Below, one piece after another: positions 3,703-21,997 of a DNA stretch of 21,997 bases. Source of the stretch: a virus; IMG/VR virus record IMGVR_UViG_3300020396_000040, positions 1 through 21,997 of that record; one strand, given 5' to 3'. How positions within the stretch are numbered: position 1 is the stretch's first letter; each line of letters begins with the position of its first letter. A program made the position numbers and the translations under genes. The notes beneath the pieces were generated by a model, which searched no databases, was not told the DNA's origin, and was given only the letters and a program-made list of their open reading frames with translations.

Positions 3703-6540
3703 ATGTACAAATTAGGAGATTATATTTCAAAATCACAAAAAGGTGTAGCTGATGGTATTGCTACGCTTGATAATACAGGTAATGTTCCTGCTTCTCAATT
3801 AACTAATGCTTCAGCAGCAGATTCAATTTACACAGCAAACGGGACAACGGGAGCGAGAACGGTTACAAGTACGGGAGATTTAACTTTTGCAACGGGTACG
3901 AATGATTTTATTATTGATAATAATTCTCTTTTTAAAATACACGAAACGGGTTACATTCAAAATATTTCAGTTGATGGTATTAATTTACTTAATTTAAGTA
4001 ACACAGCAGGAACAAGAGAACTTTCATTAGCAGGTAATACTTTTACAGTTAAAGCAGTTGAAACTAATTTTTGGAATCAAAACACAACTACTCGTTTAAG
4101 AATTGAACACCTTCGACCTAAAGTTGAATGGATTTTAAATGGTAGCATTGTTCATACTATAAGTGGTCAATACCGAACTAAATTTTATGTTGACGGATAT
4201 ACAAATGCGAGTCAATTTTTTATAATTGGTGCTAACGATTTAGTAGGAAGTGAAGATATTTCTTTGCAAGGTGAAACTATTATAAAAGGACAAGGAACTT
4301 CAACGGGTTCAACTTTGGCACTTTATGACAATGATTCAACGCCTAATAAAACTTGGGAATGGCTCGATAATGGAAATGTAAACATTGGTCAAAATAGTAT
4401 TGTTGATTTAGACAATAAAAAAATAACTTTTGATGCAGGTACTTTAGCAAGTGGAACGAGTAATGATTTAGGATTAATTATTGATGGTTCAAATATTACT
4501 AGAACGGGTTCTACTTCATCACCATTGTTAAGAGTAGATGGAGATTTAGGTACAGTTTTTACCGTTAATAGTGGGGGGTATTTTAACACTGTTTCGGATT
4601 ATACCGATTTTATTGCTCTAATGAAAAACAGAGCAGGCACAAGAGGTTTTTTACTAAAGGGTACTTTATGCGATTTAGCGTCGACAAATTTCAGACACGT
4701 TGGGGCTTTAAACAATACGGCAAACAGAATTGACCAATATGTATCAAGTAACTTCCAACAGTGGGCAATGGTTGATAATAACGTCACTAATCATTGGATA
4801 AGAAACGGCGATTCATTTGCACAAGCATCTTTTTTTATAGAAGGAATAACGGGAAGGGGTTTCAATGTTGGGGGAGGTTTACCAATAGGAACGGAAGATA
4901 TTAGCTTACAAGGTGAAACGCTTATATCTAAAAAATTAGAACTATCTACTACAACAGATGGTTTTCTAATGCCTAGGCTAACAACTGCTCAAAAAAATGC
5001 AATAAGTTCTCCCGATACCAACTTAATGTTATTTGATACGGACTTAAATAGTTTACAAAGGTATAATGGTTCAGCTTGGGTTGATGTTTCTAGTGGAGGC
5101 GATTCAATTTATACGGCAGACGGAACATTGTCAGGAAATCGAGTACTTGATATAAACAACAAAACCCTTGAATTTAAAAACGGTTCAACAGAGTTATACG
5201 CTACTAATGACCACGGTTCACACGTTTTTGACGGTGACGGAGGGGTGAACAATTTTTTGTTTTTTAGAAAAGGAGGAACGGATATATTTAGGTTAGGAGC
5301 AGGAAGTCAAGGAGTGGTAAATACAAATTTATTTGCTTTTCGTAATGGTGCGGTAAGCACTAATGATAGAATGGAAATAAACTTGGCTGAAGATAATCAC
5401 TTCGGTTGGTTCAATAGTTCAGACACGGAAGGACATAGAATAAGATACGGAAGTTTTAACCACGTAGGTTTTTTTCTTGATGGGGCTTTTGGGTGGAAAG
5501 GTTTTACAGTTGGGGGTGTAAATAGGGTAGCAAGTGAGGATATTTCTTTGCAAGGCTCAACATTAATCAAAGGTCAAGGTACTTCTACGGGTACAACTTT
5601 AGCACTTTATAACAACGATTCAACACCAAGTAAGACTTGGGAATGGTTGGATAATGGAAATGTAAACATTGAGCAAGATAGTACAGTTGATTTAGACGGA
5701 AACAAATTAACTTTTGATTGTGGCGACAATGTGGACGGGGGGTTATTAATTGATGCTTCGGCATATACGGGAGCAGACGACCCCGTTTTAAAAATAAACG
5801 GAGTTAGCAATAGTTTTACAATAACCGAAAAAGGCTATATGTCTAACACTTCTATTCAAGGAAGTAACTGTTTTTTATTTAATAACTCATCGGGAACGGC
5901 AGGAATACAAATTGGGGCAAACGGGCATTTATACGCAAGTAGTAACTTTCTTTTTCAAGCAGGGGCAACGGCTACAAATAGAATTAAATTGTATCAAGGG
6001 CGAACCATTCAAATGGAAGAAGGTTCGGGGAGTACATTAGTTCATTGGTTAAGGGTTGGAGATTCAAGGGCAGCACATTTTTTTAGAAATGGAGTAGTTG
6101 ACAATGGTTTTATTGTTGGGGCAAGTGCAAAAATTGGAACGGAAGATATTAGTTTACAAGGTGCAACATTAATAAATGATACTTTGGATATGAATAACAA
6201 CCGTATATTAAATGCAGTTGTTAATCCATCAGTCCAAGAAACAACAAGTTCGGCAACCTTTACAATAAATTCAGACCAACAAAGTGATGGTGTTTTAACA
6301 GCTATGGCAGCAGCTACAACAATAGCAGCTCCAACTGGTACACCTGTACAAAGTCAAAGTTTAATATTTAGATTTAAAGACAATGGAACGGCTAGAGCAA
6401 TTACTTGGAACGCTATTTTTAGAGCGATTGGAATTACTTTACCAACTACAACAACAGCAAGTAAATTACTTTACGTAGGCTGTAAATACAATTATACAGA
6501 TACTAAATGGGATGTTGTAAGCGTACAAGAAGAAGCATAA
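3703..6540 (+). CDS. large repetitive tail fibre protein
   Basis: At 945 residues this is the longest gene here. The N-terminus (LGDYISKSQKGVADGIATLD, then NVPASQL) is the usual start of fibres of this type. Four divergent units of about 200-210 residues each end with EDISLQGxTLI, at about residues 184, 398, 612 and 814. The DSIYTAxGT unit start occurs twice, near residues 40 and 467, so the protein is a doubled half. At about 410-465 a GFLMPRLTTAQKNAI...YNGSAWVDV module, frequent in Bacteroidota tail proteins, closes the first half. The last 100 residues form a separate beta domain ending WDVVSVQEEA; there is no peptidase S74 chaperone signature. Codon use (many ACG and GGG) differs from the neighbours, which suggests exchange of the repeat region. 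Host-recognition role is inferred. Confidence 0.88.
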   Translation: MYKLGDYISKSQKGVADGIATLDNTGNVPASQLTNASAADSIYTANGTTGARTVTSTGDLTFATGTNDFIIDNNSLFKIHETGYIQNISVDGINLLNLSNTAGTRELSLAGNTFTVKAVETNFWNQNTTTRLRIEHLRPKVEWILNGSIVHTISGQYRTKFYVDGYTNASQFFIIGANDLVGSEDISLQGETIIKGQGTSTGSTLALYDNDSTPNKTWEWLDNGNVNIGQNSIVDLDNKKITFDAGTLASGTSNDLGLIIDGSNITRTGSTSSPLLRVDGDLGTVFTVNSGGYFNTVSDYTDFIALMKNRAGTRGFLLKGTLCDLASTNFRHVGALNNTANRIDQYVSSNFQQWAMVDNNVTNHWIRNGDSFAQASFFIEGITGRGFNVGGGLPIGTEDISLQGETLISKKLELSTTTDGFLMPRLTTAQKNAISSPDTNLMLFDTDLNSLQRYNGSAWVDVSSGGDSIYTADGTLSGNRVLDINNKTLEFKNGSTELYATNDHGSHVFDGDGGVNNFLFFRKGGTDIFRLGAGSQGVVNTNLFAFRNGAVSTNDRMEINLAEDNHFGWFNSSDTEGHRIRYGSFNHVGFFLDGAFGWKGFTVGGVNRVASEDISLQGSTLIKGQGTSTGTTLALYNNDSTPSKTWEWLDNGNVNIEQDSTVDLDGNKLTFDCGDNVDGGLLIDASAYTGADDPVLKINGVSNSFTITEKGYMSNTSIQGSNCFLFNNSSGTAGIQIGANGHLYASSNFLFQAGATATNRIKLYQGRTIQMEEGSGSTLVHWLRVGDSRAAHFFRNGVVDNGFIVGASAKIGTEDISLQGATLINDTLDMNNNRILNAVVNPSVQETTSSATFTINSDQQSDGVLTAMAAATTIAAPTGTPVQSQSLIFRFKDNGTARAITWNAIFRAIGITLPTTTTASKLLYVGCKYNYTDTKWDVVSVQEEA
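4249..4434 (+). repeat. fibre direct repeat, copy 1
   Basis: A 186-base in-frame segment encoding SEDISLQGETIIKGQGTS through VDLDNKKITFD. It recurs without any indel at 5533-5718; most positions match, and most differences are third-codon or conservative. Confidence 0.85.
5533..5718 (+). repeat. fibre direct repeat, copy 2
   Basis: Second copy of the 186-base segment (SEDISLQGSTLIKGQGTS through VDLDGNKLTFD), exactly 1284 bases after copy 1. The DSIYTAxGT starts at 3820 and 5101 are 1281 bases apart, so both marks fit one duplication of about 1.28 kb inside the gene. Confidence 0.85.
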
Positions 6541-9034: not shown

Positions 9035-9634
9035 TTATTCTTCTAGCATTATTTTTGAATTAGGATTGTCTTGATACGAATAATAAAATTCGTGGTTCTT
9101 GTATATTTCATTTATTAACTCGTCGAACATTTCTATTTCTACTGACAATTCATTTTCATTGTTTTGCAACTCTTCTATTTTAAATATAAAATTTTCATAA
9201 AAAAACTGTGGATTGCAATTTTCTTTTTTGTGAATTTTCTTATAGAAGTTTCTAAGCATTTCTACTTTATTAGCAATTTCTTTTTTCTTGTCTTTAAGCT
9301 TCATCATCATTTTGTTTAACTCTCCGATAACATCGCTTAATGTTTGAAATTGTGATTCAGTAATAACATTTACTATCAGTCCTTCAAAAACAGATTTAAA
9401 ATATTCTATTTTTATCTTTTCAGTAATCTCTGTAGTACTTCCAGTAATATCATAAGTTTGTCTACGCTTAGAATTAGACAACACATTATAAGCTTCTTTA
9501 ATAGCCTTAAATTCTTTTTCTTTACCTTTTATTAAGTCAGGGTGATTGAGTTTAACTAGCCGTTTATAGGCTAGTTTAATCTCTTTATCAGTAGCTTTTT
9601 TATCTACTTCTAATAATTCATATAAGTCTTTCAT
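9035..9634 (-). CDS. J-domain (DnaJ-like) co-chaperone protein
   Basis: Residues 2-63 form a J domain: DLYELLEVDKKATDKEIKLA in helices I-II, the invariant HPD at 31-33 and FKAIKEAYNVLSNSKRRQ in helix III. J domains stimulate the ATPase of Hsp70/DnaK, so the protein should recruit the host DnaK. No Gly/Phe region, zinc fingers or client-binding C-terminal domain follow; instead residues about 80-190 are helical and probably coiled-coil (ELNKMMMKLKDKKKEIANK), likely a phage-specific target-binding part. It is the last gene of the minus block, and its ATG shares one base with the YopX-family stop. The HPD is intact, so activity is expected; the client is unknown. Confidence 0.88.
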   Translation of the reverse strand: MKDLYELLEVDKKATDKEIKLAYKRLVKLNHPDLIKGKEKEFKAIKEAYNVLSNSKRRQTYDITGSTTEITEKIKIEYFKSVFEGLIVNVITESQFQTLSDVIGELNKMMMKLKDKKKEIANKVEMLRNFYKKIHKKENCNPQFFYENFIFKIEELQNNENELSVEIEMFDELINEIYKNHEFYYSYQDNPNSKIMLEE

Positions 9635-16557: not shown

Positions 16558-16703
16558 ATGTCTTTACAATTACTTTCAACTGATTTTGAATTTTTCTCAC
16601 AGTTTTTAATTTTTACAATTGATACAACTGATATTCCTATAGTTGTTATTGCTATTGTAAAAAGTAGTAGAAATAAATTTCTTCTAAATTTAATCAATTC
16701 CAT
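16539..16703 (-). CDS. 54-residue single-helix membrane peptide after ThiF
   Basis: An ORF found by hand: MELIKFRRNL, then the membrane helix FLLLFTIAITTIGISVVSIV (11-30) and a polar tail with two Cys (KNCEKNSKSVESNCKDIK). The positive-inside rule (KFRR before the helix) places the tail outside. Its ATG lies within the end of the ThiF gene and overlaps the ThiF stop by 10 bases (ATGGAATTGA), the coupled layout of this operon, and it fills most of the 200-base gap before dnaB. Size and shape fit a small Rz1-like or toxin-like peptide, but nothing fixes a role. It may belong to the conjugation module by position. Confidence 0.6.
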   Translation of the reverse strand: MELIKFRRNLFLLLFTIAITTIGISVVSIVKIKNCEKNSKSVESNCKDIKETEH

Positions 16704-17440
16704 TGAATACTTTTTGAAGATAATGTTTCTAATGAAACATAAATACCTTTGTAAATCATTTGTTCTTTTGTTAATAGCTCGTCTAAAAGATTAAGTCCAT
16801 GACTAGCAAGTAAAGGATTCATAAACAACTTTTGTTTTGATATAGCTTCTGCTATAGAGCAACTAGGTTCATTTAAATCTTCTTTAGTTTTTAAATAATC
16901 TTTAGGAAAACCATAACTAGCTGTTTCTGTTTTAACATTTTTTCCAGGAACGTAACTAACATATACTTGTCCATAATCATAACTGTTACCAAAATCAACA
17001 ATATAAACACCTTCTCCGTAATTTATATCTTGTCCTTTTATTTTATGAGAAACATAGTTGTAAACTTGTTTTCTTACTTTCATGTTATCAGGACACAATA
17101 TAATTACTTGTGTTTCTTTGATTTTTTTAACATCATATTCATCTTCATAAGCATTCCAATCAAAGCCATAATTTCTGTTAATATTACTAACAATAGTTTT
17201 AGCTTTACTTTCTCCTATTTCATCGTCGTTATATAGTTGTCTTACTGTGTTAGACTCACTTATAACGTCAGGGTCATAAACATTTACATTTATGCCTTGA
17301 CTATTCATTACAACTTCATTATGTACTAAATTTAGTTTTGCTAAACCTTGTAAAACATAAGAACCTGTACCTCCAACGCCTATTAAGTCTATCTTAATAG
17401 GCGATAAAGGATTAGAGAGAAACCTTTTTGTTAAGTGCAT
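16694..17440 (-). CDS. PRTRC-type ThiF (E1-like) activating enzyme
   Basis: A 248-residue E1-like enzyme expected to adenylate the C-terminus of the ubiquitin-like protein C and pass it on as a thioester. Visible marks: nucleotide loop IDLIGVGGTGS (17-27), VYDPD with Asp56 and Asp58, NTVRQ (64-68, Asn and Arg that touch ATP), Lys79 in GESKAK and ILCPDN with Asp118. PSCSIAEAISKQ at 192-203 has Cys194, the probable catalytic Cys, in a context I associate with PRTRC ThiF proteins. The following FMNPLLASHGLNLLDELL helix is also family-typical. It overlaps the B gene by 29 bases. No zinc-binding Cys pairs of canonical ThiF/MoeB are seen, as expected for this group. Confidence 0.93.
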   Translation of the reverse strand: MHLTKRFLSNPLSPIKIDLIGVGGTGSYVLQGLAKLNLVHNEVVMNSQGINVNVYDPDVISESNTVRQLYNDDEIGESKAKTIVSNINRNYGFDWNAYEDEYDVKKIKETQVIILCPDNMKVRKQVYNYVSHKIKGQDINYGEGVYIVDFGNSYDYGQVYVSYVPGKNVKTETASYGFPKDYLKTKEDLNEPSCSIAEAISKQKLFMNPLLASHGLNLLDELLTKEQMIYKGIYVSLETLSSKSIQWN

Positions 17441-18116
17441 TTAATACGTTTTTAATTTTTTTACCACTATCAATATGATTTTGACTTTGTTCTTTTTCAG
17501 TCATTTCATAAAATAAGTTTGTATCAAATTGTAAACCTGACTGCAAATGATTGTTGAAATTAGAGTTCCAAAATAAATCATGAAGATTAGTTTTAAGCAT
17601 TCTTAAACTTTTAAAAACATAATCTCTTCCTTTTAAAGAATTTCCCCAACATATTTTACCATCGTCATAAACATTAGGAGTAGCTAATCTATAAAGTTTA
17701 GTTTCTAAATGTCTAAATTTCTTATAAGCATAAACATAAACTTCATTACCGTCATATACCCAAAAAGTACTAGGACAATAATAAATTTCATTTTTAGTAC
17801 CCATAGAAATTATTCTTTTACTAGGTTTGTCTGTCCACGCTATTAAAGTGTTTTCAGGAGAATTATCTAGCCAAAAAAATGTATTAGGCTTACAGTCTAC
17901 ATTAATTGCAATGTTTGTACCTTTTTCAACAACTAAATCTTTTAAGAAATTAATTGTTTTTATGCTAGCAGGCTTACCTACTAGCATTTTACCATTTTTA
18001 TCTATATCTCTTACTTCTACATAATCATTACCTTCATTATTATTATAAAAAATCATTGTTTTTTTAGGTAATAAATTTTGTATTGGTTTAAATACAGCGT
18101 TTTCTAAATCTGCCAT
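17412..18116 (-). CDS. PRTRC system protein B, E2-like (UBC-fold) protein
   Basis: A 234-residue protein of the PRTRC B family, which Iyer, Burroughs and Aravind placed among prokaryotic E2-like (UBC-fold) proteins. The beta-meander runs through NTLIAWTDKPSKRIISM, YYCPSTFWVYDGNEVYVYAY and LYRLATPNVYDDGKICWGN (142-160). Cys156 in DGKICWGN sits where the E2 active Cys is expected after the conserved NVxxDGxxCxGN stretch. The tail is helical (MTEKEQSQNHIDSG...). It overlaps F by 13 bases and ThiF by 29 bases, so stoichiometric expression is likely. It should accept the ubiquitin-like protein from ThiF; its substrate is unknown. Confidence 0.87.
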   Translation of the reverse strand: MADLENAVFKPIQNLLPKKTMIFYNNNEGNDYVEVRDIDKNGKMLVGKPASIKTINFLKDLVVEKGTNIAINVDCKPNTFFWLDNSPENTLIAWTDKPSKRIISMGTKNEIYYCPSTFWVYDGNEVYVYAYKKFRHLETKLYRLATPNVYDDGKICWGNSLKGRDYVFKSLRMLKTNLHDLFWNSNFNNHLQSGLQFDTNLFYEMTEKEQSQNHIDSGKKIKNVLNALNKKVSL

Positions 18117-19114
18117 AAGTAATCTATTAATTTTTTAATGTATTGAACTGTTTTAAATTGTTTTGTAGTATTTACAATTCCATCTAAAGAGTACTCTTTT
18201 TTATAAATTAGTCTTTCAAATTCATAGTTATTCCAGTAGTCGTTTAAATGATGCTCATACTCTTTAAAAATCTCATCATCTTTAGGTAAAAGACACATAT
18301 AATTTTGAAAAGGAATAATTTCTTCGTTTTCAATATCTTCTATTTTTGTAACTAAATCAGAGAATTTAAAATCATTACAACTATAACTGTTGTAATGATT
18401 AATCATTTTTAACATGATTTTTGCTTGAGGACAATGATTAGGATTTTCCATTATGTAATCGTAATGCCAATCATTATTCCCTTTAACAAATTCATTTATA
18501 CACTGCTGTAATTTTTTATCATATTCTGCAATGTAATCAGATTCATTTATTTCTAAATCTAAATCTTCATTTTCATCACTAAGACAGTATTCTAAAGTCA
18601 TACGAAAAGTAACATTAGTATTAATAGTTGGATAGTCATACTTAATAACTAAACTTCCAATTACATACCTTATTATCTTTTTAAGATTTTCGTCTTCTAC
18701 ATTATCAATACAATCAAAAGTAAAACAATTGCCAACCTCTGGTTCCTCATGATATAAAATAATTGATTTACCGTCAAAAGTTATATTGTCATAATTGAAA
18801 TATTCTTTTTCTGATTTTAATAAATCATTTAAATTAGAGTTTAAAAAGTTGATTAACTGTTCTTGGTTAAAATTTGAAATACATTTTAAGTCTATATCAG
18901 TATATTTGTGTAACACACTTAATAAAGACAATAGAAGATTCTCAATTTTATCAATTCTAAATTTGTCTAATACAGAAATTACAGGGTAAAACGTGAGGTT
19001 CCTTTCGGAACCTTTATACGTTTTTCTTCTTTTGACTCGTTTAGGATTCTTGAGCACATTTTTGTATGTAACGCATTGTCCAACATAACGCATCTTTTCT
19101 TTTCTTTTTTGCAT
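18104..19114 (-). CDS. PRTRC system protein F (probable)
   Basis: A 336-residue acidic, helical protein in the slot where PRTRC operons carry protein F, between C and B, and with the right length (about 330-370). Conserved-looking start of the folded part: ERNLTFYPVISVLDKFRIDK (38 onward). The interior is rich in Asp, Glu and Asn (SDENEDLDLEINESDYIAEY). The call rests on order and size more than on motifs. The N-terminal 37 residues are very basic and overlap the 67-codon ORF out of frame by 136 bases; ATG at 19093 (MRYVGQC) is an alternative start. Role in the conjugation system is unknown; an adaptor is possible. Confidence 0.65.
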   Translation of the reverse strand: MQKRKEKMRYVGQCVTYKNVLKNPKRVKRRKTYKGSERNLTFYPVISVLDKFRIDKIENLLLSLLSVLHKYTDIDLKCISNFNQEQLINFLNSNLNDLLKSEKEYFNYDNITFDGKSIILYHEEPEVGNCFTFDCIDNVEDENLKKIIRYVIGSLVIKYDYPTINTNVTFRMTLEYCLSDENEDLDLEINESDYIAEYDKKLQQCINEFVKGNNDWHYDYIMENPNHCPQAKIMLKMINHYNSYSCNDFKFSDLVTKIEDIENEEIIPFQNYMCLLPKDDEIFKEYEHHLNDYWNNYEFERLIYKKEYSLDGIVNTTKQFKTVQYIKKLIDYLWQI

Positions 19115-19182
19115 ATCTCTAATACTTTTTCAACTACCCTTTTAGGTAATGATTCGTAAACCTTGTTAATTAAACTTTTCAT
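18979..19182 (-). CDS. 67-residue basic ORF between PRTRC C and F
   Basis: Its ATG overlaps the stop of gene C as ATGA, the classic coupled start. The first 35 residues are amphipathic and helical (MKSLINKVYESLPKRVVEKV, LEICKKEKKR), and the tail is basic (EEKRIKVPKGTSRFTL). Two thirds of it overlaps the start of F in another frame. Either both frames are used, or one start is wrong. The shared bases fold into an AGGTTCC-GAAA-GGAACCT hairpin with a GNRA-type loop. No canonical frameshift heptamer was found that would join it to F. Confidence 0.5.
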   Translation of the reverse strand: MKSLINKVYESLPKRVVEKVLEICKKEKKRCVMLDNALHTKMCSRILNESKEEKRIKVPKGTSRFTL

Positions 19183-19385
19183 CCTTTTGTTCCTATTTTA
19201 GTTTCAAACGTATATTCAATTTTGTTGTTCACTACGTTAGGTTCAGATAAATGAGAGTTTACTAACTCTGGATAAGAGTTTGCATAAAAATCCAAAACTT
19301 GTTTTAAAGTAAAGTTTTGATTAGGATCTGAAAGCATAAGTTCTTTGAACTTAAATACTCTTTCTAGTCTTTCTGTTTTAGCCAT
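19179..19385 (-). CDS. PRTRC system protein C, ubiquitin-like
   Basis: A 68-residue protein of the PRTRC C family (the beta-grasp group known as Prok_Ub). Family marks: RVFKFKELMLSDPNQNFTLK (9-28), VLDFYANSYPELVNSHLSEP (30-49, with the YPEL block) and a C-terminus ending YTFETKIGTKG. The terminal Gly is exposed with no extra residues after it, so no processing would be needed before activation by the ThiF protein. It overlaps E by 8 bases and the next ORF by 4 (ATGA). It is the likely modifier that gets attached to target proteins or other acceptors, though conjugation by PRTRC has not, to my knowledge, been shown. Confidence 0.88.
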   Translation of the reverse strand: MAKTERLERVFKFKELMLSDPNQNFTLKQVLDFYANSYPELVNSHLSEPNVVNNKIEYTFETKIGTKG

Positions 19386-19986
19386 TAAAATTAATTTTTT
19401 TGTATCTATCTTCCATCATTGATTCAATTTGCTCAGGAGTTAATTGTTTAGATTCAATAACTTTAGGCTCTGCTGGTGCTGTGTAAGCTTGTTCTTGAAA
19501 TAAACCAACACTTTTGTTGTTGTCATCAAGTTTTTGCTTACAAGACTTAGCTAAGGAGCTTTCTGAGTCAATCTTTAAAGCTTCATCAATTAACTTTTGT
19601 GCTTCTTTAAAAGATTTTTCTTCAATTAGTTTATCAATACCTTCTAATTTCTTTTTCACTTTTTCGTTAAGAGTTTTTTGTTTTTTCTTCTTCTCTTCTG
19701 CCATTTTTGACTCTGCTTTCATCTTTTCTGCCGAATTGATAAAATCATTCATGTTGGTTGTTACTTGTGAAATTTTAGGTAATTGATTTTCTAAAGATTT
19801 ACTTAACTCTTCTAATACACTTTGAACATCTGTACCTGTAACAATAAACGGTACAATTAACTTCGCACTTTCGTCTGAAGTTTTTGGCTTTGGCAATACT
19901 GAAACAGTAAATTCATCGCCAATTTTCTTGAATGCTACAACAACATCAATGTTGTCTAGCTTTTCTAAAATTTGTGTAAATATCAT
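19378..19986 (-). CDS. PRTRC system protein E
   Basis: A 202-residue protein at the head of the module. The N-terminal domain shows the PRTRC E pattern: MIFTQILEKLDNIDVVVAFK, DEFTVSVLPKPK and VPFIVTGTDVQSVLEEL (45-61, family form PLxLTGTPxELD). Residues 90-112 are Lys/Glu-rich; 116-154 form a TPR-like helix pair (IDKLIEEKSFKEAQKLIDEA); the C-terminus has a short helix LTPEQIESMMEDRYKKI. ATG comes 11 bases after the leader stem-loop D. The molecular role of E is not known; as the first cistron with its own structured leader it may set the level of the module. Confidence 0.85.
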   Translation of the reverse strand: MIFTQILEKLDNIDVVVAFKKIGDEFTVSVLPKPKTSDESAKLIVPFIVTGTDVQSVLEELSKSLENQLPKISQVTTNMNDFINSAEKMKAESKMAEEKKKKQKTLNEKVKKKLEGIDKLIEEKSFKEAQKLIDEALKIDSESSLAKSCKQKLDDNNKSVGLFQEQAYTAPAEPKVIESKQLTPEQIESMMEDRYKKINFNG

Positions 19987-21183: not shown

Positions 21184-21435
21184 TTAAATTATTTTTTTAG
21201 TTTTTTTATCAAATCTAATTTCTTTTAGTATTTCATTATCAACACTAAATTTAAAAATGATTTCGTTATCAACTTCTCTTCTAGTTGTACATATTTGTGC
21301 AATTTCATGAGAGTTTTTTGCACTTGTACCTACCATAATAGTTTGTGTACTCGTGTCTTTTGCTCCAAAAGATTTATCTGACTTGTAAATACAAGCTTCT
21401 ACTTTTGTCCATATTGGGTAACTTCTACTTGCCAT
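21184..21435 (-). CDS. hypothetical 83-residue protein
   Basis: A small protein that begins MASRSYPIWTKVEACIYKSD and continues FGAKDTSTQTIMVGTSAKNS. It is beta-like and ends basic (IRFDKKTKKII). I do not recognise the family, though the first part looks conserved in character. It lies 2 bases after the SPL-like gene and 1 base before the RHH gene, so the three form one operon. Function unknown. Confidence 0.62.
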   Translation of the reverse strand: MASRSYPIWTKVEACIYKSDKSFGAKDTSTQTIMVGTSAKNSHEIAQICTTRREVDNEIIFKFSVDNEILKEIRFDKKTKKII

Positions 21436-21437
21436 AA

Positions 21438-21997
21438 TTAAAATATATATCTGATTTTATTCCATTTAATAATGCTATCATGAAGTTTTATAAACGATTG
21501 AATATAATCACGTTTTAAATTGTGTTCATATCTAATGTTTGTACCTCCATAGCTAGAAACTTTGCTTTCTTGGTTTTCTGGTGTCCATAACAAACTTTCT
21601 CCTTTTTTGTCGTTTGTAACATTTTTATAATGTTTTTTTTCGTTGTGAGTTAAAAAGATTACTTCGCATTTTACTTGGTCTTTGTAATCAATATAATCAT
21701 TACAAAGTTGAAATAAATACTTATAGTCTTTTAACCAATCAGGATAAACAACAACAGGACTAAAGTTTAAATGAACATCATATCCTGCATCAATAAAAGC
21801 GTTTACAGCTTTTATTCTATCAATAATTTTAGGTGTGCCTGGCTCAAGATAATCTGAAATCTTTTGAGGCATTAAGCTAAATCTAATTCTTACTTTACCA
21901 TTTGGGTTATAATTAATAAATTCAATAGGTATAATTTTAGTGGCTAGAGTAGCCATAGCTATAGGATGATTTTTAAAGAAATCAAAAATCTTTTCCC
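21438..21997 (-). CDS. spore photoproduct lyase-like radical SAM protein, N-terminus cut
   Basis: The frame continues to the right edge (upstream residues read EKIFDFFKNHPIA), so the ATG at 21956 is internal and only the C-terminal 186 or so residues are visible. The pattern NHPIAMATLATKI, RIRFSLMPQKISDYLEPGTP and RIKAVNAFIDAGYDVHLNFSPVVVYPDW matches the SplB family (VRFSLNPxEIxxxxEPGTP, then AxxxxxAGYxVGFHFDP). SplB reverses the thymine spore photoproduct with a 4Fe-4S cluster and SAM. The CxxxCxxC cluster motif would lie outside the window and must be checked. In SplB the radical path uses a conserved Cys and Tyr; Cys in KCEVIFLTH is visible. Phage relatives may act on other DNA bases. Confidence 0.8.
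   Translation of the reverse strand, partial: EKIFDFFKNHPIAMATLATKIIPIEFINYNPNGKVRIRFSLMPQKISDYLEPGTPKIIDRIKAVNAFIDAGYDVHLNFSPVVVYPDWLKDYKYLFQLCNDYIDYKDQVKCEVIFLTHNEKKHYKNVTNDKKGESLLWTPENQESKVSSYGGTNIRYEHNLKRDYIQSFIKLHDSIIKWNKIRYIF

Follow-up and report, generated by a model that had tools for sequence, protein, structure and literature searches.

In the spore photoproduct lyase (SPL) of B. subtilis, SplB, residues C141, Y97 and Y99 have been shown to carry out the reaction: C141 gives its hydrogen to the thymine radical, and Y99 takes the next step of the relay, which regenerates SAM (PMC3742179). Structures are available for the enzyme of G. thermodenitrificans (PDB 4FHC-4FHG, 4K9R, 4RH0). 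SPL-family proteins are also annotated in non-spore-formers, including Deinococcus, Methylobacterium and Streptomyces plasmids, and two plasmids of non-spore-formers carry the gene beside DNA repair genes (UDG and dinB with L059; photolyase with L062). Family genes in proteobacteria are predicted to be SOS-regulated (PMC3323433), and a family protein is UV-induced in Curtobacterium, where the authors leave its role open (PMC12029717). Dry DNA forms spore photoproduct without spores; according to one review, no such lesion is seen when DNA is irradiated in its physiological aqueous state (PMC3231322). An initial annotation of the locus described here regarded an SPL as out of place with a non-spore-forming host; the presence of the family in many non-spore-formers, its predicted SOS regulation and UV induction, and the formation of the lesion in dry DNA all speak against that view.

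The window (the whole stretch of viral DNA that was analysed, 21,997 bases) comprises an entire record, and its SPL gene, which has its stop codon side inside the window and a frame that stays open through the right edge, is therefore cut by the contig end. The whole window lies inside the IMG/VR contig IMGVR_UViG_3300030390_001781 (G001; 69,355 bp) with 99.96% identity over 21997 bases, and the complete gene of 286 aa was read there (locus L002). All catalytic residues are encoded in the portion beyond the window edge (Table 1). The short ORF directly downstream of the gene had no family match in the family scans. It is kept in only six close relatives and is probably a neighbour rather than a required partner; a role as obligate partner was rejected on the same count. 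Elsewhere in the window the phage carries a PRTRC gene set, a group of genes that is mainly plasmid-borne, and a gene for a DnaJ-domain protein.

Table 1. Location of the features discussed in the text. Handles beginning with L or G denote the loci and contigs compared.
Feature	Location	Strand	Remarks
SPL-family radical SAM gene, C-terminal part	window 21438..21995	-	residues 102-286 of 286; 185 aa
SPL, first 101 residues	G001 ~60439-60741 = L002:5698-6000		start at L002:5698; holds C31/C35/C38, Y37, Y39, C88; basis: contig G001
83-aa ORF	window 21184..21435	-	immediately downstream of SPL, 2 bases past its stop
PRTRC gene set	window 16694-19986	-	ThiF (TIGR03736, over cut-off), E2-like PRTRC B, PRTRC C (over cut-off), PRTRC E, then DUF932
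DnaJ-domain protein	window 9035-9634	-	phage-encoded
Split intein at C38 (third cluster Cys)	L021:1966-3788; L026:512-2361		breaks SPL gene exactly at C38
Group I intron in C88 codon	L019: about 4970-5959		RF00028, 61.3 bits
ThyX (thymidylate synthase, PF02511)	L024:7361-8050		example of six phage loci
tmRNA gene	L042:8428-8816		RF00023; tRNA genes also on this SPL-bearing phage contig
Tandem SPL-family genes	G662 C1:4201572-4203700		Adhaeribacter aquaticus
Glu-type cellular TIGR03886 proteins	L123-L143 (most), L181-L186, L193, L201-L207		annotated spore photoproduct lyase family

The window portion alone scores 58.3 bits against Pfam SPL (PF20903), above the gathering cut-off of 27, and 208.6 bits against NCBIfam TIGR03886 (E 1.4e-61). 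For the whole protein, TIGR03886 is the best-scoring sequence family (292.8 bits, E 3.4e-87, profile 62-346), and TIGR04070 (SplB) gives 87.4 bits (E 8e-25) over profile positions 65-337 only. The protein reaches neither the equivalog cut-off set by NCBI (437.55 bits for TIGR03886; 400 bits for TIGR04070) nor the full length of either family, and all 16 of the phage contigs tested (205-314 bits against TIGR03886) likewise fall under the cut-off. These scores lie below the curated values because profile positions 1-61, some 60 N-terminal residues, have no counterpart, and for the same reason substrate binding may differ from that of SPL. As both cut-offs are missed, we label the protein a short phage-type SPL subfamily within Pfam SPL, belonging to neither NCBI equivalog. 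Other radical SAM families were rejected, with the Rv2578c, PA0069 and MiaB-type models at E 1e-4 or worse.

An AlphaFold2 model built from the phage alignment (pLDDT 82.8, pTM 0.85) has the SPL fold, with low confidence at residues 1-9 and about 29-47, where the cluster loop (29-36, 39-47) is modelled at pLDDT <50. In a Foldseek search of the PDB the top six entries are all SPL (TM 0.77-0.81, E ~1e-15) and the next match has an E of 3e-4. Among BFVD structures no SPL-like match was named (TM <=0.63).

The cluster motif CxxxCxxC is present as CLLDCTYC at residues 31-38 (C31, C35, C38), Y37 and Y39 lie either side of C38, and C88 sits within YDIACNED. Both MAFFT and a profile search align C88 with the hydrogen-donor Cys of SPL (C141 in B. 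subtilis, C140 in G. thermodenitrificans); a profile of 30 phage sequences pairs C88 with C140 of the solved enzyme and scores the wild-type chain (68.5 bits) above C140A (64.7 bits) and C140S (64.5 bits). In B. subtilis numbering, C31/C35/C38, Y37, Y39 and C88 correspond to C91/C95/C98, Y97, Y99 and C141. All six are invariant in the 30-sequence phage alignment, C88 is found in 54/54 phage copies readable at that position, and Y37 and K121 are also kept. Two copies are defective, L042 being truncated and frame-shifted and L051 having Tyr for C35 in the cluster motif; these defects may be assembly errors. An apparent loss of the cluster motif in L021, L026, L028, L030, L032, L034, L036, L019 and L042 was rejected, as the cases trace to a split intein, a group I intron, start-codon choice or a broken copy. 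Likeness to SplB thus covers the cluster motif, the catalytic Cys, the two Tyr adjoining the third cluster Cys and the fold (TM 0.81). SplB differs in its length of ~342 aa, whereas the phage form lacks the N-terminal part, is ~20% identical and sits on phages of non-spore-forming Bacteroidota. Judged from its residues, the phage protein is apparently a shortened yet catalytically complete version of the spore enzyme.

The initial annotation had proposed an SPL-like enzyme on a phage, and this identification is borne out by the PF20903 and TIGR03886 matches, the SPL fold and the phage structural genes described below. It had suggested looking for CxxxCxxC and the conserved Cys and Tyr beyond the right edge, where all are now found on G001, and its two reservations, that the cluster motif might be absent upstream or that another radical SAM family might match better, are answered by CLLDCTYC and by a next best family at only E 1e-4.

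The phage SPL is under purifying selection, with pairwise dN/dS among copies of about 0.08-0.31. Homing elements favour strongly conserved codons, so the two sites at which the gene is interrupted agree with the inferred active site. The broken gene of L021 and L026 consists of two ORFs: in the first, residues 1-37 of SPL lead into an intein N-part (TIGR01445, 30.5 bits against a cut-off of 24.5), and in the second an intein C-part (TIGR01443, 20.9 bits against 15.6) leads into SPL from C38. In L019, the intron ends were placed where group I introns are normally bounded (U just ahead, G as the last base), and intron removal then rejoins T|GC to restore the Cys codon of C88. An antisense ORF between the intein halves is HNH-like by eye and an ORF inside the intron is GIY-YIG-like by eye; neither has a Pfam match. 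The insertions at C38 and C88 provide independent support for strong conservation of both codons.

The closest sequence family, TIGR03886 of non-spore-formers (Deinococcus, Methylobacterium, Streptomyces, Microbacterium and cyanobacteria), is ~37-43% identical over the window part and shares the motifs YDIG-N-D, RIRFSLMP, EVIFLTHN and a C-terminal IRYxF. Its members are ~350 aa long and carry Glu (GEN[SG]D), whereas the phage copies carry Cys ([AS]CNED) and score under the cut-off. Glu is usual among cellular TIGR03886 proteins (YDIGENSD). In even genome samples, which are small, matches over the family cut-off have Glu in 6/6 Pseudomonadota, 7/8 Actinomycetota (the other, L208, has Thr) and 1/1 Cyanobacteriota, and Cys in 2/2 Bacteroidota. 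Among the 80 closest GTDB loci, Bacteroidota keep Cys with one exception seen (L121, Glu), and the planctomycete L122 has Cys. Second, SplB-like copies in several of the sampled genomes keep Cys as well (FEVSCYTD). The Cys/Glu reading is firm because the motif alignment is gap-free among TIGR03886-type proteins. We know of no assayed substrate for the TIGR03886 group; its split into Cys-bearing (Bacteroidota, phages) and Glu-bearing (most others) proteins predicts different chemistry.

Bacteroidota chromosomal SPL-like proteins (Spirosoma, Pontibacter, Rufibacter, Mucilaginibacter) keep the Cys (GCNSD) and are 42-48% identical to the phage form, but they are full length (~345 aa) and form a separate clade. 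In a quick tree, the phage proteins and a few short cellular proteins fall together in a clade with support 84, next to that of the Bacteroidota chromosomal proteins and a mainly Glu clade; the deeper order is unsure because branches are long. The short cellular proteins within the phage clade (Cesiribacter L120, Odyssella L070, L068, L069 and L164) also lack the N-terminal part, but their cluster motif is CX3CX4C (e.g., CAGGCRNSYC), unlike the phage CxxxCxxC. Such spacing is unusual for radical SAM enzymes. L070 and L120 have chromosomal surroundings, and L070 lies one gene downstream of a metK-like gene. In Adhaeribacter aquaticus two SPL-family genes stand in tandem, one TIGR03886-type and one distant; in other genomes both kinds are present but apart.

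The SPL gene occurs in 57 IMG/VR loci, and the larger contigs examined are mostly from crAss-like-related phages. The terminase, portal and major head protein of G001 match PHROG families 6681, 6547 and 11589, as do proteins of the 122-kb contig G011. The G001 terminase is 24-29% identical to those of crAss-like phages and Flavobacterium phages, and recurs in six other SPL contigs (G004, G005, G006, G008, G010 and G016) at ~27-33% identity over the main pieces; it was not found in the remaining SPL contigs, some of which are fragments. SPL identity among these phages is 51-77%, that of the terminases is about 30%, and SPL has no constant neighbour, so the gene has apparently moved between phages. 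Two GTDB loci belong to other phage types: L065 has a terminase of phrog_38, and L066 is a prophage in a Kordia MAG, in which SPL adjoins genes for a head maturation protease and a tape measure. The host very probably belongs to the Bacteroidota, given that the terminase, portal and head proteins are of the crAss-like and Flavobacterium-phage type. Of the flavobacterial-type host assumed in the initial annotation, the phylum is a sound inference and the family a guess. Flavobacteriaceae genomes hardly ever carry the gene: a real SPL match was found in only 1/251 sampled Flavobacteriaceae genomes, and that match is the Kordia prophage copy. Across the Bacteroidota sample, 2/396 exceed the family cut-off and two more have short forms.

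No conserved repair gene stands beside SPL among the phage loci compared, and no conserved neighbours surround the Bacteroidota chromosomal genes. Many phage loci have SPL near replication genes. Six phage loci have ThyX at a distance of ~0.7-1.7 kb from SPL. In 50,697 named phage records, the window part as query found no match, B. velezensis SplB found two weak matches in unannotated faecal records, and L054 found one. We found no paper on phage-borne SPL in the open-licence literature, which is weak evidence of absence.

The most likely task of the phage SPL is to reverse spore photoproduct, or a thymine-dimer lesion close to it, in the DNA of the phage. From the observed family, fold, catalytic residues, conservation, purifying selection and distribution, we infer a reaction, substrate, timing and lesion in virion DNA. 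A [4Fe-4S] cluster on C31/C35/C38 would cleave SAM to give a 5'-deoxyadenosyl radical, which would abstract the C6 hydrogen of the methyl-joined (methylene-linked) thymine dimer; the dimer would split, C88 would supply the 3'-thymine with a hydrogen, and the radical would return by way of Y39 (together with Y37) so that SAM is regenerated. Early after infection and in the dark, the enzyme would serve to repair the phage's own incoming DNA. A shortened SPL with SPL chemistry, used by the phage to repair its own DNA, is the best explanation available, and one in which our confidence is evenly balanced. The repair genes next to cellular SPL genes and the UV response of the family speak for it too; against it count the missing N-terminal residues with the scores under the cut-offs, the poorly modelled cluster loop, the review's statement on aqueous DNA, and the lack of a conserved repair gene beside the phage gene or of any conserved neighbour around the Bacteroidota ones.

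The first alternative, that the SPL fold and radical chemistry act on another DNA substrate, is possible though doubtful. Repair or editing by the enzyme might be aimed at some other pyrimidine photoproduct or at a modified base that the phage derives from thymine, a reading consistent with the absent N-terminal part, the scores under the curated cut-offs, a closer overall match to TIGR03886 than to canonical TIGR04070, and the ThyX genes nearby. The initial annotation had leaned toward such a lesion or modified base, for which no positive evidence emerged: no base-modification gene was seen among the part of the G001 genes scanned. Canonical chemistry is instead argued for by the full canonical residue set, including the hydrogen-donor Cys missing from cellular TIGR03886 proteins outside the Bacteroidota.

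A radical SAM enzyme that has the SPL fold and is directed at the host, RNA or protein, for example in tRNA modification or counter-defence, is unlikely. Phages use many radical SAM enzymes, and this gene passes between phage lineages with no constant partner, in the manner of accessory genes; in many loci it is found close to replication genes, yet in the Kordia prophage it stands beside head genes. However, the combination of a Cys at the C88 site and the Tyr pair is specific to SPL, and in most radical SAM relatives outside SPL the aligned residue is Glu or some other amino acid. Finally, a decaying passenger gene without phage function is barely credible, since the broken copies L042 and L051 that would suggest it may be assembly errors, while dN/dS well below 1 largely refutes it, the active site is invariant over 30 divergent copies, and the layout of the intein and intron allows the intact product to be recovered.

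Capsid DNA is dense and poorly hydrated; virion DNA, densely packed and partly dehydrated, might form spore photoproduct in sunlight. TT steps, common because the phage DNA is 29.5% G+C, make up 14% of its dinucleotide steps (mean over both strands). No report of spore photoproduct in virions was found in the open-licence literature, again weak evidence of absence. A broader proposal, which we put forward tentatively and consider somewhat improbable, is that virion DNA is photochemically like spore DNA, packed and dehydrated such that sunlight would generate spore photoproduct, and that a group of phages of Bacteroidota brings along a SAM-recycling lyase, working without light, that clears the lesion as the phage enters a host without such an enzyme. 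If so, the cellular branch without the catalytic Cys would do a different reaction.

In summary, SPL-family proteins in non-spore-formers were already known; what is new is a phage-type subfamily with a putatively complete relay, as read from its sequences, and its contrast to the Glu-type cellular branch. The UV repair enzymes known from phages are of the photolyase and endonuclease types. An SPL carried by a virus would be a route that reverses the damage directly and needs no light, and it would raise the testable question of whether capsid DNA forms spore photoproduct.
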